Assembly (NCBI GenBank): GCA_019359125.1
Contig: JAHHHY010000003.1
Span: 215,853 to 279,852, forward strand
Direction of reading: 5' to 3'
Source of the DNA: Pleurocapsa minor GSE-CHR-MK 17-07R
GTDB taxonomy: Bacteria > Chloroflexota > Anaerolineae > Aggregatilineales > Phototrophicaceae
Length of the DNA: 64,000 nucleotides
Part shown: positions 42,798-48,602 of the stretch, one piece after another
Numbering within the stretch: the first letter of the stretch is position 1
How the letters are laid out: each line of letters opens with the position of its first letter
Notes under the pieces: model-generated
Told to the model about the DNA's origin: nothing
What the model saw: the letters and a program-made list of their open reading frames with translations, nothing else
Databases searched by the model: none
Translations under genes and position numbers: made by a program

Positions 42798-43040
42798 AGC
42801 CCCCCTTTGTACCGACAGGCAAGCGCACGGCGCCGCGCCGACACCTGTGCGCTTTCTCGCGCTTTATCATTCCGATAATAACGAGATTTGGCCGTGCGCG
42901 CCAATGAGACGGCTGTCCTAATGAGTATGTTGTTAGAAGTGCCTGATGATCACGGGAAGCAGTCGCTAATTTTTCAGCGCCGTTCACGATACAGGGCTAC
43001 AGTGGTAGATGACGCAATATTATGGCAGGAGAAATTTGCA

Positions 43041-44471
43041 ATGCGTAAAGCAGGACTTTTTACAGCAAGTTGTATGGTCGCGGCAGCGCTGATGGTATCA
43101 GCGGCAGCCGCCCAGGACGCGGGCTTCACGCCCGCCGTAGACGTGAGCTCCCAGGTCGTATTCAATGGCACGGTGACGATTGACCGCGTGGTCTCGAATG
43201 GCCCCGGCTTCATCGTGATTCATGTGAACAACAACGGCGGACCCGGCCCCGTCATCGGTTACAGCGCCGTGAACACGGGTGAAAACCTGAATGTGGCGGT
43301 GGACGTGGATACGGCTGGCATCACCAGCACGATGTTCGCCATGCTGCACACCGACGATGGCATGGTCGGCGCGTATGAATTCGATGGCGCCAGCGGCCTG
43401 GACAACCCGGTCTCCGTGGATGGCGCGGTCATCACCCCGGCGTTCGATGTCTCGGCAATGGCCGTCAGCGACCAGTTCCTGGCTGGCGACACCGTCACCA
43501 TCGATTCCGTCACCGTCTCGGCCCCGTCGTGGGTCGTGATTCACAATGACAATGGCGGATCCCCCGGCCCCGTGCTGGGCCAGACGCTGGTGCCCGCGGG
43601 CACCACGGCCAATGTCGTCGTGACGCTGGCCGCCGAGGGCCGCACCGGCTCACTGTGGCCGATGCTGCATGTGGATGACGGCACTGCCGGCACCTATGAG
43701 TTCGACGGCGCCAGCGGCCTGGACAACCCGATCATCGCCGGCGGACGCGTGGCCACCAGCCAGCTGTGGACCGTGCCGCACGTGCGCATGGGCGACCAGA
43801 TCGTGCTGAATGGCGATAACTCGATGGTGATGTCTGACCGCATGGCGCTGATGGTCACGGCCGAAAGCGTGCTGTGCGCGGCCGAATGCGTGCTGGTGAT
43901 GCACACCGACAACGGTGGCAGCCCCGGCCCGGTGCTGGGCGCGACCGTGCTGCCCGCGGGCCTGTCCCGCGATGTGATCGTCACCTTCTCGATGCCCGAT
44001 ATCGCGGCGACGCCGGTCATGTGGCCGATGCTGCACGTGGACGATGGCCAGGTGGGCGTGTACGAATTTGACGGCGCCAGCGGCCTGGACAACCCGGTCA
44101 CGGTGGACGGCGCAGTGCTGACCTTCCCGATCAATATCGCCCCGAGCATGGATTATGAGGGACAGGCCGCCGCCGATGGCGTGATCCGCATCGACAGCGC
44201 CCTGATCGACGCGGCTGGCTGGCTGGTGATTCACCAGTCTGCCGATGGCCAGCCCGGCCCGGTGCTGGGCCAGGTGCCGCTGCGCGCCGGCCTGAACAGC
44301 GGCATTGAAGTGACCGTGGATGCTGAGCTGGCGGGGACGGAAGTCTTCCCGATGCTGCACTACGACACCAACGCTGCCGGCGTGTACGAATTCGGCACGG
44401 TCGAGGGCGCGGATGCCCCGGTCTTCTTCGGTGGCAACGTGGTCGTCTCGCCGCTGGGCATCGCCCAGTAG
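43041..44471 (+). CDS. Secreted protein with four DUF7282-like repeats
   Basis: Signal peptide MRKAGLFTASCMVAAALMVSAAAAQ; repeated (W/F)(V/I)VIHxDNGGxPGPVLGxxxVPAG...MLHxDDGxxGxYEFDGASGLDNPV. Confidence 0.82.
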   Translation: MRKAGLFTASCMVAAALMVSAAAAQDAGFTPAVDVSSQVVFNGTVTIDRVVSNGPGFIVIHVNNNGGPGPVIGYSAVNTGENLNVAVDVDTAGITSTMFAMLHTDDGMVGAYEFDGASGLDNPVSVDGAVITPAFDVSAMAVSDQFLAGDTVTIDSVTVSAPSWVVIHNDNGGSPGPVLGQTLVPAGTTANVVVTLAAEGRTGSLWPMLHVDDGTAGTYEFDGASGLDNPIIAGGRVATSQLWTVPHVRMGDQIVLNGDNSMVMSDRMALMVTAESVLCAAECVLVMHTDNGGSPGPVLGATVLPAGLSRDVIVTFSMPDIAATPVMWPMLHVDDGQVGVYEFDGASGLDNPVTVDGAVLTFPINIAPSMDYEGQAAADGVIRIDSALIDAAGWLVIHQSADGQPGPVLGQVPLRAGLNSGIEVTVDAELAGTEVFPMLHYDTNAAGVYEFGTVEGADAPVFFGGNVVVSPLGIAQ

Positions 44472-44484
44472 CACCACGCTTCAC

Positions 44485-44540
44485 GCATAAACAATACGCG
44501 CCCGCCGGGAAAACTTCCGGCGGGCGCGTATTGTTTATGC
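44485..44540. terminator. Bidirectional terminator, perfect 24-bp stem
   Basis: gcataaacaatacgcgcccgccgg-gaaaactt-ccggcgggcgcgtattgtttatgc between convergent genes. Confidence 0.88.
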
Positions 44541-44554
44541 CGAGCGAAATCGTG

Positions 44555-46150
44555 TTAATCAGGGAAACGGGCGTTGGCGCTGACGATGGCCAGGTCATAG
44601 ATATTCACCACCTGATCGCCATTCAGGTCAGCGTGGCTCGCGACAGCAGGCATGGCCACCCCAAACTGGGCCATCACCAGCGCGACATCCGCGCCGTCCA
44701 CCACCCCGTTTTCGTCGGCATCGCCGCCGGTCAGCGTGACGGCTGGCAGGGTGAGCGTCCCCTCCGGGAAATAGCCTTCCAGGCTGTATGACAGGTAATG
44801 CGGCGCAGAAAAGACCAGCGCATACTGCCCGGCAGGCAGGTCCAGGGCGAAACTGCCATCCACATTCACGTCGACGGCGAACTGCGTTTCTGGCCCGATG
44901 ACCGTCACGACGGCCCGCATCAGCGGCTGCGATACCGTGACCGTGCCGGTCACGCGAGACAGGCCAGCGACCTCGGCGACGGGTTCGATGACAGGGTCAG
45001 GCGTTGTCTCCGGCGTGACTTCGGGCGTGGCTTCCGGCGTCACCTCAGGCAGCAGTATGCCATCCGTGCTCTCAGGTGTTGTCTCCGGCGTGGCTTCGGG
45101 CGTGGCTTCGGGCATCGCGGTGTCAGTCGGCAGCGCCGTGGGCATCTCGGTCGGCACGGTGACAGCTTCTTCGGTTGGGGGCGCGTCTGCGGCCCGCGCA
45201 ATACCCTCCACCGAAAGCGACATCGACGCGGCGGCTGGCAGCAGCGGCGCACCACTCGCGTCAAAGGCCTGCGCCTCGCATAGAATTTGCGCTGGCCCCT
45301 GGGCGATCAGCTTGTAATTGAGCGCCCATAATTCGCCGGAATCGGCAGTCGCGGTGCCGGGCAGCGTCGCCACCAGCAGCCACTGGCCATCCGGCTTGAA
45401 ACCGCTGTCATTGACCGCCGCGCCGTTGGCCGATAACAGCCCGCCCGTCGATGCTGTCAGGCCAGCGAGCAGAGCGGCGTCAGCGCGACAGGCGACGGCC
45501 ACGGTGCTTACATCGGCAAAGCCATACGCCCCCAGCGTGACCGTGAATGCATCCCCTTCTGGCACAGCCGACGCGCCGGACAGCAGCAGGAAACCGGGCG
45601 GCACATGCGGGGGATCCGTAACGGGCGTCTCCGTCGGCGGCAGCAGCTCGACAGTCGGCGTCTCGCTGGCGATCACGTCACCCGGAACGCCCGTCATTTC
45701 GGCGGTCTGTTCGGGCGGCAGTTCAGGCAGCACGACCGGAGTAGCCTCAGCGGTCGACAGGCTCATGGCCGGATCGTCTGTCGGGAGCATGACCTCGGTC
45801 GGAACGGGCGCGCCGTCTACCGGTGCTTCGTCTGCGGGAGCCGGGTCAGTAGGGGCTGGCAGACTGTCAGCGGGCGGCACGTCCGTGGGCGAGACATCCG
45901 TGGGAAGCGGCGGGATGATATCGGCAGGCGGCGCGCTGGTGGGGGCTGGCAGGATGTCGGCCGGAGCAGCCTCGGTGGGAGGCAGGATAATCTCGGCGGG
46001 CGGCATATCGGTCGGGTCAGCGACCGGATTGTCGACGGGGGCTGAATCCTGCGCGATGACCGCCTGCACCACCACAATGACCAGCAGCAGGCTGACCAGC
46101 AGCAGCCAGCGGCGGACGGGTGAAGCGAGAAACTTTCGGTACTGCGTCAT
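44555..46150 (-). CDS. Membrane-anchored protein with Pro-rich region, cohesin-like domain, CarboxypepD_reg-like domain and C-terminal dockerin
   Basis: N-terminal TM WLLLVSLLLVIVVVQAVIAQ; PAD/PT-rich stalk; LLSGASAVPEGDAFTVTLGAYGFADVSTVAVACRADAALLAGL; dockerin GDADENGVVDGADVALVMAQFG...HADLNGDQVVNIYDLAIVSANAR. Confidence 0.72.
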   Translation of the reverse strand: MTQYRKFLASPVRRWLLLVSLLLVIVVVQAVIAQDSAPVDNPVADPTDMPPAEIILPPTEAAPADILPAPTSAPPADIIPPLPTDVSPTDVPPADSLPAPTDPAPADEAPVDGAPVPTEVMLPTDDPAMSLSTAEATPVVLPELPPEQTAEMTGVPGDVIASETPTVELLPPTETPVTDPPHVPPGFLLLSGASAVPEGDAFTVTLGAYGFADVSTVAVACRADAALLAGLTASTGGLLSANGAAVNDSGFKPDGQWLLVATLPGTATADSGELWALNYKLIAQGPAQILCEAQAFDASGAPLLPAAASMSLSVEGIARAADAPPTEEAVTVPTEMPTALPTDTAMPEATPEATPETTPESTDGILLPEVTPEATPEVTPETTPDPVIEPVAEVAGLSRVTGTVTVSQPLMRAVVTVIGPETQFAVDVNVDGSFALDLPAGQYALVFSAPHYLSYSLEGYFPEGTLTLPAVTLTGGDADENGVVDGADVALVMAQFGVAMPAVASHADLNGDQVVNIYDLAIVSANARFPD

Positions 46151-46190
46151 CAGATTCTGCCCGATTCTGCACGGTGCTGAAGAAGACCGA

Positions 46191-46220
46191 GGGTGCCCCG
46201 CGAAAGCTGACGGGGCACCC
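46191..46220 (-). terminator. Hairpin downstream of the cohesin-like gene
   Basis: gggtgccccg-cgaaagctga-cggggcaccc perfect 10-bp stem. Confidence 0.65.
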
Positions 46221-46240
46221 TGTGGACTCAGCAGTCTGCC

Positions 46241-46975
46241 TTATTGCTGGTCGTCCACGCGACGGCGGCGCACGATCACGATCACGATGAACAGGCCAGC
46301 CAGGACGATGCCGACGCACAGGACGGCGAGCGCGATTTGCGCAAACGGCTGTGTCTGTACCTGCGCGCTGGTCTCAGCCGGTGCGACGGCCGATGGCGTG
46401 GCGCTGGACTGATCCGGCGCATCCGCTGTCACAGCGGCAGCAGACTGGCCGCCAATCACAAGCTGCGTGTTGACTGCGACCACGGTCCCGCCATCCAGCC
46501 GATAGGTGACATAGACATTATCTTCAACAGACGGATCGACAATCCCGGTCAGCTCGGCAAAGGTCACCGTGAGCGGGGCGATGCCGGTTTCACAGGTCAC
46601 CTTGAGCACGGCCCGGAAGAACAGGCCATCGCCATTGGCAATCGGCCCGCCCTGAAGCAGCGCTGCCGCCAGGCGCGTGTCGTGTTCATTCAGCTCGGAG
46701 AATATTGAAAATCCGCCCTGTTCAGATTCGATGGGCAGAAAAGTGCCAGTCTGGCGTTCGAGGACGCTCAGGCACAGCGGGTCAACGCTGATGCCGATGT
46801 CCGTCCCGGCCATATTGACCGCCCCACGGACAAATACGTCAGCCGTGACGGTGTCCCCGATCTGGGCCATCGGCTGGCTGAGGACAATTTCGACGGTGGG
46901 GCCAGATTGGGCGAGTGCAGGGACGATGATCCCCATGAAAATGAGTGCGATGGCGACGATCCGCTTGCTGAACAT
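46241..46975 (-). CDS. Cohesin-like domain protein with signal peptide and C-terminal TM anchor
   Basis: GPTVEIVLSQPMAQIGDTVTADVFVRGAVNMAGTDIGISVDPLCLSVLE...GLFFRAVLKVTCETGIAPLTVTFAELTGIVD; C-terminal TM IALAVLCVGIVLAGLFIVIVIVRRRR. Confidence 0.72.
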   Translation of the reverse strand: MFSKRIVAIALIFMGIIVPALAQSGPTVEIVLSQPMAQIGDTVTADVFVRGAVNMAGTDIGISVDPLCLSVLERQTGTFLPIESEQGGFSIFSELNEHDTRLAAALLQGGPIANGDGLFFRAVLKVTCETGIAPLTVTFAELTGIVDPSVEDNVYVTYRLDGGTVVAVNTQLVIGGQSAAAVTADAPDQSSATPSAVAPAETSAQVQTQPFAQIALAVLCVGIVLAGLFIVIVIVRRRRVDDQQ

Positions 46976-47087
46976 ATGCCTCCAAAGGGGGTAACGCTGC
47001 GATCCTGTAAAAAGGCATATTCGGGCGGGCCGGCTGTAAGAGAATAATTTTGTGCGGCCCGTTTCTGTTGCACTTGCCTGGCAATAC

Positions 47088-47123
47088 GGGAAGCGCGGAG
47101 TGCTTTTCTACTCCGCGCTTCCC
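47088..47123 (-). terminator. Hairpin downstream of dockerin gene
   Basis: gggaagcgcggagt-gcttttct-actccgcgcttccc perfect stem. Confidence 0.75.
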
Positions 47124-47134
47124 TGAATATTCAG

Positions 47135-48229
47135 CTAGTCGCAGGCGCTCGTCGCGGTAGTCGCGTCGAAGTTGCGGCCCACATGGACCAGGTCAAAGAT
47201 ATTGACCGTGGTATCAAGGTTCATGTCACCTTCGTACGACGCGTTGATGTCTACGCCGCTGTCGCCAAAGTCTCCACCGATGATGGTGGCGTCGGTATTG
47301 CTGATGACGCCATCATCATTGGCATCGCCCGCCAGCAGCGTGATCACGCCCGACGTGCCGATGAGCGAATCCGCATTCTGCGCTGAGCCGGTGTCGCCCA
47401 GGTTGACCGGGCTGGTGCTGCACGCCAGGTGTCCCCACATATCGGCGGCCACGTCGATATTCAACGTGTTGTTCGAGTCATTCGCCGTGGCATAGCTGCC
47501 ACCGACAACACCACTGCCATTTTCGACATACAGATAACCGGCATCCATGGTGAGCGAGGTCTGGTAGCTGCCTTCGGCAGCGTCGGTATACTGCTTTGGC
47601 CCTAGATCAAGCGTGACCGTGCTCAGGCTGCCAATTGAGTCCGAGTCACTGCGCACCGTGACATCGCCCGACAGCCAGGCCAGGTCAATATCGTTGACCG
47701 TGACGTTCAGGTCGTTGACCGTACGCAGCCAGCCGGTCAGGGGTGCGCCATACTGGTCAGACAGCTTGAAGGTGTCGTCGACAAACGTAACACTCACGCT
47801 GCCGTCGGCGCTGGTGAGGTCGGTGTCTGCCGTCAGCGAATAGCTGCCGAGCGTGAAATCGGTCACGTTGACAACATCGGCGTTCTGGCGGCTGACGCCA
47901 TACAGCGCGAGGGTATTCTCGCCAATCAGCAGGCCATCGCTCGCCAGCGAGCTGAACGTGCCTGGCGTGTAACTGGTCGGCTCAGAACCCGAGTAATCGC
48001 CTGCCGAGATGCTGGTGCCAAACTGGAAGCCGAACACATTGTTGTCGGTATAGACGCCAGAACATTCGGCTACCACCGGGATCGTGTCGCCTTCATTGAT
48101 GGACGTCACCGTGGAGTCAAGGTAACACCCATTGACATCGGCATCCGGGTTGGATGTGCCGGCACTAACGCTGGTGACGAGGACGAACAGACCGAGAATC
48201 CCGAGGATAACACTTACTTTGCGGAGCAC
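47135..48229 (-). CDS. Secreted protein with C-terminal type-I-like dockerin
   Basis: Signal peptide; C-term LLAGDANDDGVISNTDATIIGGDFGDSGVDINASYEGDMNLDTTVNIFDLVHVGRNFD (two DxNxDGxxxxxD-like Ca loops). Confidence 0.78.
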   Translation of the reverse strand: MLRKVSVILGILGLFVLVTSVSAGTSNPDADVNGCYLDSTVTSINEGDTIPVVAECSGVYTDNNVFGFQFGTSISAGDYSGSEPTSYTPGTFSSLASDGLLIGENTLALYGVSRQNADVVNVTDFTLGSYSLTADTDLTSADGSVSVTFVDDTFKLSDQYGAPLTGWLRTVNDLNVTVNDIDLAWLSGDVTVRSDSDSIGSLSTVTLDLGPKQYTDAAEGSYQTSLTMDAGYLYVENGSGVVGGSYATANDSNNTLNIDVAADMWGHLACSTSPVNLGDTGSAQNADSLIGTSGVITLLAGDANDDGVISNTDATIIGGDFGDSGVDINASYEGDMNLDTTVNIFDLVHVGRNFDATTATSACD

Positions 48230-48564: not shown

Positions 48565-48602
48565 AAACGCGCCCGCCGGGAAAACTTCCGGCAGGCGCGT
48601 TT
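48565..48602. terminator. Terminator sharing its core hairpin with 44485-44540
   Basis: aaacgcgcccgccgg-gaaaactt-ccggcaggcgcgttt. Confidence 0.8.

Follow-up and report, generated by a model that had tools for sequence, protein, structure and literature searches.

A conserved three-gene cohesin-dockerin unit in an Anaerolineae family, probably encoding a membrane-tethered assembly

Introduction

Cohesins and dockerins are the plug-and-socket modules of cellulosomes. They have also been widely noted outside cellulosomes, where their partners and purpose are mostly obscure. What, then, might three neighbouring genes with such modules be doing in an uncultured Chloroflexota (Anaerolineae) bacterium? 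The window in which they lie, a stretch of 64,000 nucleotides, had been given a first-pass annotation from its letters alone. There, the three genes were read as a noncellulosomal surface scaffold, with a membrane receptor, a bridging adaptor and a secreted ligand. In the following, we ask which modules the three proteins contain, whether the genes belong together, and in which order their products could be joined.

Gene layout of the locus

The ORF check finds three neighbouring minus-strand genes exactly where the annotation had placed them, and we name them P3 (47135-48229, the first transcribed), P2 (46241-46975) and P1 (44555-46150). The features of the locus are the following, with the basis of each assignment in brackets.

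47135-48229, minus: P3 gene, 364 aa; signal peptide, cohesin-like domain, X-like domain, dockerin (ORF, profiles)
47690-48148, minus: P3 cohesin-like domain, residues 28-180, divergent (hhalign; low-confidence AF2 model)
47339-47689, minus: P3 X-like beta domain, residues 181-297 (weak profile similarity to P1 X)
47159-47338, minus: P3 dockerin, residues 298-357, Ca loops 47291-47326 and 47192-47227 (profile, Pfam)
47088-47123, minus: hairpin between P3 and P2, 14-bp stem, no T run (sequence)
46241-46975, minus: P2 gene, 244 aa; signal peptide, cohesin, linker, TM helix, RRRR (ORF, profiles)
46478-46903, minus: P2 type-II-like cohesin, residues 25-166 (PDB, family profile and Pfam searches)
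46271-46345, minus: P2 C-terminal transmembrane helix, residues 211-235 (sequence; KD19 3.30)
46190-46221, minus: terminator-like hairpin between P2 and P1 (sequence)
44555-46150, minus: P1 gene, 531 aa; signal peptide or anchor, Pro/Thr stalk, cohesin, linker, X, dockerin
46052-46150, minus: P1 N-terminal hydrophobic segment, residues 1-33 (AVIA|QD; KD19 2.92)
45599-46051, minus: P1 Pro/Thr/Ala-rich stalk, residues 34-184 (sequence)
45194-45598, minus: P1 cohesin, residues 185-319 (AF2, Foldseek, profile)
44729-44974, minus: P1 X module, CarboxypepD_reg-like, residues 393-474 (PF13620, AF2, profile)
44567-44728, minus: P1 dockerin, residues 475-528, Ca loops 44687-44722 and 44594-44629 (Pfam, profile)
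44485-44540, minus: hairpin 3' of P1, 24-bp stem (sequence)

Shine-Dalgarno-like sequences, both good, precede P3 and P2. Co-transcription of the triad is likely, judging from synteny in relatives. That said, because both gaps contain hairpins and a sigma-70 promoter search at the triad gave nothing above chance, a single transcript stays a prediction. The neighbours of the triad encode SH3, DUF7282, DUF4342, PA14, SIS, kinase and lipocalin proteins, and a domain scan of eight of them finds no glycoside hydrolase domain, in agreement with the earlier statement that no cellulase is adjacent. The DUF7282 protein, predicted to be secreted and built with four such repeats (window 42888-44471, plus strand), adjoins P1 and converges with it. 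As a separate observation, the hairpin core GCCGGAAGTTTTCCCGGC is found identically at 44504-44521, after P1, and at 48575-48592, beyond the DUF4342 gene that lies upstream of P3; the two copies frame the triad, and 0.01 such identical pairs would be expected by chance.

Module composition of the three proteins

Searching with the Pfam models for Cohesin and Dockerin_1, which had been proposed as a check of the annotation, finds both. Namely, the P1 dockerin reaches 26.9 bits against PF00404 (cut-off 22.9, residues 476-524), PF00963 is matched by 9 of the 11 P2 family members, and PF00404 by 4 of the 11 P3 family members.

The assignment is most direct for P2. Its single sequence has no match in Pfam; it does match PDB cohesins (E 8e-6, ScaB cohesin), and its family profile finds solved structures at E 1.7e-14, with type II cohesins ranked first. 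At the C-terminus, a 25-residue hydrophobic helix is followed by RRRR. Because of these matches and this C-terminus, P2 is to be seen as a type-II-like cohesin whose membrane localisation we infer, much as it had first been described.

In P1, the order of modules is seen both in profiles and in the predicted fold. The profile search gives the ScaA X-Doc at E 4.3e-12 and the ScaB cohesin at 6.7e-11, and a CarboxypepD_reg match (PF13620, 9.8e-7, just under the cut-off) lies directly before the dockerin. An AF2 model of residues 178-531, built from a 10-sequence alignment, has an overall pLDDT of 74; most of the cohesin reaches about 82-94, and the X domain about 79-90. Its best four PDB matches in Foldseek are the Coh9-X-DocII tail of CipA (3kcp, 4fl4; E 4.9e-14 to 3.1e-13). 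Lower down, the model matches the single cohesins 2vo8 (TM 0.78) and archaeal 2xdh (0.71) and X-Doc dyads (5k39_B, 0.70), with other surface beta-sandwich proteins interspersed among these lower matches. The annotation was correct about the Pro-rich stalk, the cohesin and the C-terminal dockerin, and less secure about an N-terminal anchor. AVIA|QD also fits signal peptidase, yet it lies in a long segment of high hydrophobicity; instead of an anchor, this segment may be a signal peptide that is cleaved off.

P3 is the most divergent of the three. Its dockerin, taken alone, scores 16.4 bits, below the Pfam cut-off, and matches solved dockerins at E 0.0018-0.0028. The description of P3 as a secreted protein ending in a dockerin holds. 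What had been overlooked is its N-terminal domain (residues 28-180), which hhalign relates to the P1 and P2 cohesins with probability 86-87. The scores are about 34-40; 60 column shuffles reach 17 at the highest, and X or dockerin modules give no more than 13. By profile, the middle domain weakly resembles the X domain of P1, scoring higher than all 60 shuffles; an X-like beta domain, missing from the original domain list, precedes the dockerin in both P1 and P3. The AF2 model of P3 (11-sequence alignment) is poor, with pLDDT 47, and the best ten PDB matches of this low-confidence model are all cohesin-containing structures, which lends the cohesin assignment weak support. P3 is therefore best read as a Coh-X-Doc protein with a divergent, putative cohesin-like domain. 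We also considered chance matches as the source of the module assignments, and rejected them, as profile, fold and synteny agree.

Conservation across the family

Full-length P3 is found at 11 places in 9 of the 98 genomes of the GTDB family, with a P2 homologue adjoining each time. Among 396 genomes of the class it occurs in this family only, the remaining matches covering the dockerin end, and P2-like proteins in other families of the class match at lower scores. We examined 32 P2-like loci in the family. In 24 of them a dockerin gene lies directly on either side of P2, on one strand and in constant order, and the gaps measure -6 to 212 bp. Beyond these 24, one locus (L067) qualifies by inspection and another stops at the contig end; the P1 homologue of L067 (G002:C42, 9779-11039) lies in two frames, reflecting either a frameshift or a sequencing error. 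By gene order, the three genes are a conserved stand-alone unit. Its named carriers are MAGs called Anaerolineae or Anaerolineaceae. One further MAG is labelled Bacteroidetes (L113, JAPUDW010000186.1); the label is probably wrong, and the MAG more likely belongs to this Anaerolineae family.

The first gene of the triad is of the P3 type in 9 cases (window-type) and another protein ending in Coh-X-Doc in 15 (payload-type), the latter with a large N-terminal region that has no Pfam match in those scanned. In L069, L071, L072 and L105 this payload is a conserved secreted region with an H-x-H-G type motif (CHYDHHHGDDP or CWYGHEHGADP), to which no Pfam family corresponds in L069 and L072, the two scanned. 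The P3 cohesin, X and dockerin are present in every window-type triad. P1 keeps its X-Doc in nearly all triads, and its cohesin is absent from L065, from one of the two L104 triads and from all 15 payload-type triads; P3's dockerin remains conserved where the P1 cohesin is missing. Both Ca loops are kept in most dockerins of the family triads, and the first loop of the P1 dockerin is lost in two window-type relatives, L066 and L068. At yet another locus (L070, G017:C405), the stalk gene gives way to one for an S8 protease whose C-terminus is dockerin-like, and across the P3 gene from it is an M23 protease that likewise has a dockerin-like end.

Two dockerin classes

Do the two dockerins of the triad have different partners? 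In an alignment of all 48 dockerins from the family triads (24 P3 and 24 P1), all 24 P3 dockerins have Gly at position 17 of the first Ca repeat and none of the 24 P1 dockerins does; this is the single well-filled column that parts the two groups completely. This position is among those that we take to be the recognition positions of dockerins (10, 11, 17, 18 and 22). The split suggests two binding specificities; it could also arise simply because the two groups descend as separate paralogous lineages. Mirror-tree correlations of distance matrices over the window-type triads do not separate the pairings (P2-P3, r 0.72 vs P2-P1, 0.73).

Other cohesin-dockerin sets in the genome

A search of the rest of the genome for more dockerins, which the annotation had proposed, gives two further self-contained sets. 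The first (G000:C17:189046-199181, L062) comprises a protein with a cohesin and three LysM domains, a second cohesin protein and three dockerin proteins. The cohesin of the LysM protein is over the cut-off, and one of the dockerin proteins is a Pfam beta-helix. From its domains, the cohesin-LysM x3 protein is likely a wall-bound receptor. The dockerin repeats of this set are near-identical (VVTLLDFSLLA) and unlike those of the triad, and because of this difference its specificity is likely separate from the triad's. The second set (G000:C2:35264-37304, L063) is a cohesin-like protein divergent from a Pro/Thr-rich protein with a dockerin at its end. A GH48 search gave no match, and its control search matched nowhere either.

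Proposed assembly and alternatives

How could the three products be joined? We propose that the triad is one conserved unit that would make a calcium-dependent, membrane-tethered assembly that combines type-II-like cohesins with X-dockerin dyads. P2 would serve as the anchor, the helix held in the membrane and the cohesin facing outwards. P3 would be a two-headed link, obligate because its cohesin, X and dockerin recur in every window-type triad, and its dockerin would plug into the P2 cohesin. The P1 dockerin would in turn plug into the P3 cohesin, giving the order P2 <- P3 <- P1. P1 itself would be a Pro-rich stalk ending in X-Doc, whose extra cohesin could here accept a further dockerin. 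The reasoning is as follows. P3 always keeps its cohesin and P1 does not, so the obligatory cohesins are those of P2 and P3 only; the obligatory dockerins are those of P3 and P1, and the simplest wiring that would use each of them once is P2 <- P3 <- P1. We regard the overall explanation, a conserved triad forming a membrane-tethered assembly, as reasonably probable, while the exact order, taken by itself, is tentative and falls somewhat short of an even chance. The modules, the conservation of the gene unit and the two dockerin classes are observed; binding, localisation, cargo and biological role are inferred. The unit would probably display or organise extracellular proteins on the cell, since the P3 position in related loci also bears a large payload domain. 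A bolder proposal, to our minds slightly more doubtful than the exact order, is that this is a general, exchangeable surface-display system of the Anaerolineae family, in which the TM cohesin and the stalk-X-Doc protein would stay constant on either side of a variable Coh-X-Doc payload gene, with residue 17 of the first Ca repeat keeping the dockerins apart and thus fixing the order of assembly.

One alternative is the wiring first suggested for the locus, in which P1 is an adaptor scaffoldin, its X-Doc binding the P2 cohesin and its cohesin binding the P3 dockerin. It draws on a real likeness: P1 shares the Coh-X-Doc order and fold with the CipA C-terminus, where the X-Doc is what binds anchoring cohesins of type II; the X-Doc of P1 is closest to those of ScaA and CipA, and P2 is closest to type II cohesins. 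As a general rule, with P1 bridging and P3 as the ligand, this arrangement fails because of the triads listed above in which P1 has no cohesin; since the P3 dockerin is conserved there, its partner cannot generally be P1. We consider this wiring unlikely. Still less likely is a head-to-tail polymer, in which P3 (and P1) would insert its own dockerin into its own kind of cohesin to form a surface fibre tethered by P2. Both modules are always on P3, with X-Doc and Coh in one chain, which is what such a fibre would use; the P3 AF2 model, itself poor, has no intramolecular pairing. Finally, the modules could be structural remnants, with beta sandwiches and EF-hand-like ends of stalks that stabilise secreted proteins without pairing as cohesin and dockerin. 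This would agree with the divergent P3 cohesin and the loop lost in some P1 dockerins, and is highly improbable given that most dockerins keep both Ca loops and that cohesin-TM and dockerin genes are conserved together in one unit.

Such a unit would endow a common, uncultured Chloroflexota group with a defined system of surface assembly and would yield new orthogonal Coh-Doc pairs. What is more, receptor, linker and stalk adjoin in a recurrent gene unit, and for this reason the pairing rules are testable on just three small proteins and on the many variants found in nature.

Comparison with known systems

The triad has the cohesin and dockerin modules that characterise cellulosomes. Profile searches of its own genome give single-cohesin ORFs only and no scaffoldin with several cohesins per chain, and domain searches find no CBM on P1, P2 or P3. 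With single cohesins, no CBM and no cellulase among the eight neighbours scanned, we rejected the triad as a true cellulosome; the noncellulosomal reading of the annotation is upheld, the modules being present and the locus having no link to cellulose degradation. Among cellulosomal parts, the likeness is to the type II cohesin and X-dockerin pair, as the cohesin is closest to type II and an X module precedes the dockerin. In module order and fold, P1 resembles the C-terminus of Clostridium thermocellum CipA (Coh9-X-DocII; 3kcp, 4fl4, 2b59), and the P2 cohesin resembles the anchoring type II cohesins of the SdbA kind. Unlike CipA, however, the triad scaffold has one cohesin rather than nine, no CBM and no cellulase partner at the locus; the anchor is a C-terminal TM helix, unlike in CipA and SdbA, where P3 has no counterpart either.

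Outside cellulose degradation, the planctosome proposed for Nemodlikiaceae (Planctomycetes) is noncellulosomal, with peptidases as its proposed load and a lamin-tail anchor (PMC6461901). Like the triad, it combines a cohesin anchor with an adaptor bearing dockerin and cohesin; the anchor of the triad is a TM cohesin instead of a lamin-tail protein. The window triad has no dockerin-bearing peptidase; only the relative G017 has proteases, of the S8 and M23 kinds, that end in a dockerin or dockerin-like module. ANME archaea have noncellulosomal dockerin and cohesin proteins whose domain sets vary between species (PMC9012536). These proteins and the Archaeoglobus fulgidus cohesin (2xdh) share with the triad the use of Coh-Doc outside cellulose degradation and the presence of Doc and Coh in one protein, whereas the triad is a fixed three-gene order that recurs in a family. 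The closest isolated fold match to the P1 cohesin is to the glycosidase cohesins of Clostridium perfringens (2vo8, 2jh2), which are fused to enzymes and have no membrane receptor gene.

Within the Chloroflexi, earlier work on five Anaerolineae genomes and strain UNI-1 found no cohesin or dockerin (PMC4877987), and searches of the open-access literature, judged by titles, abstracts and selected passages, give no description of the triad arrangement. The kind of system, noncellulosomal Coh-Doc, is thus known; what is new is the fixed three-gene unit with its TM cohesin, its obligate Coh-X-Doc link and its stalk-X-Doc protein.
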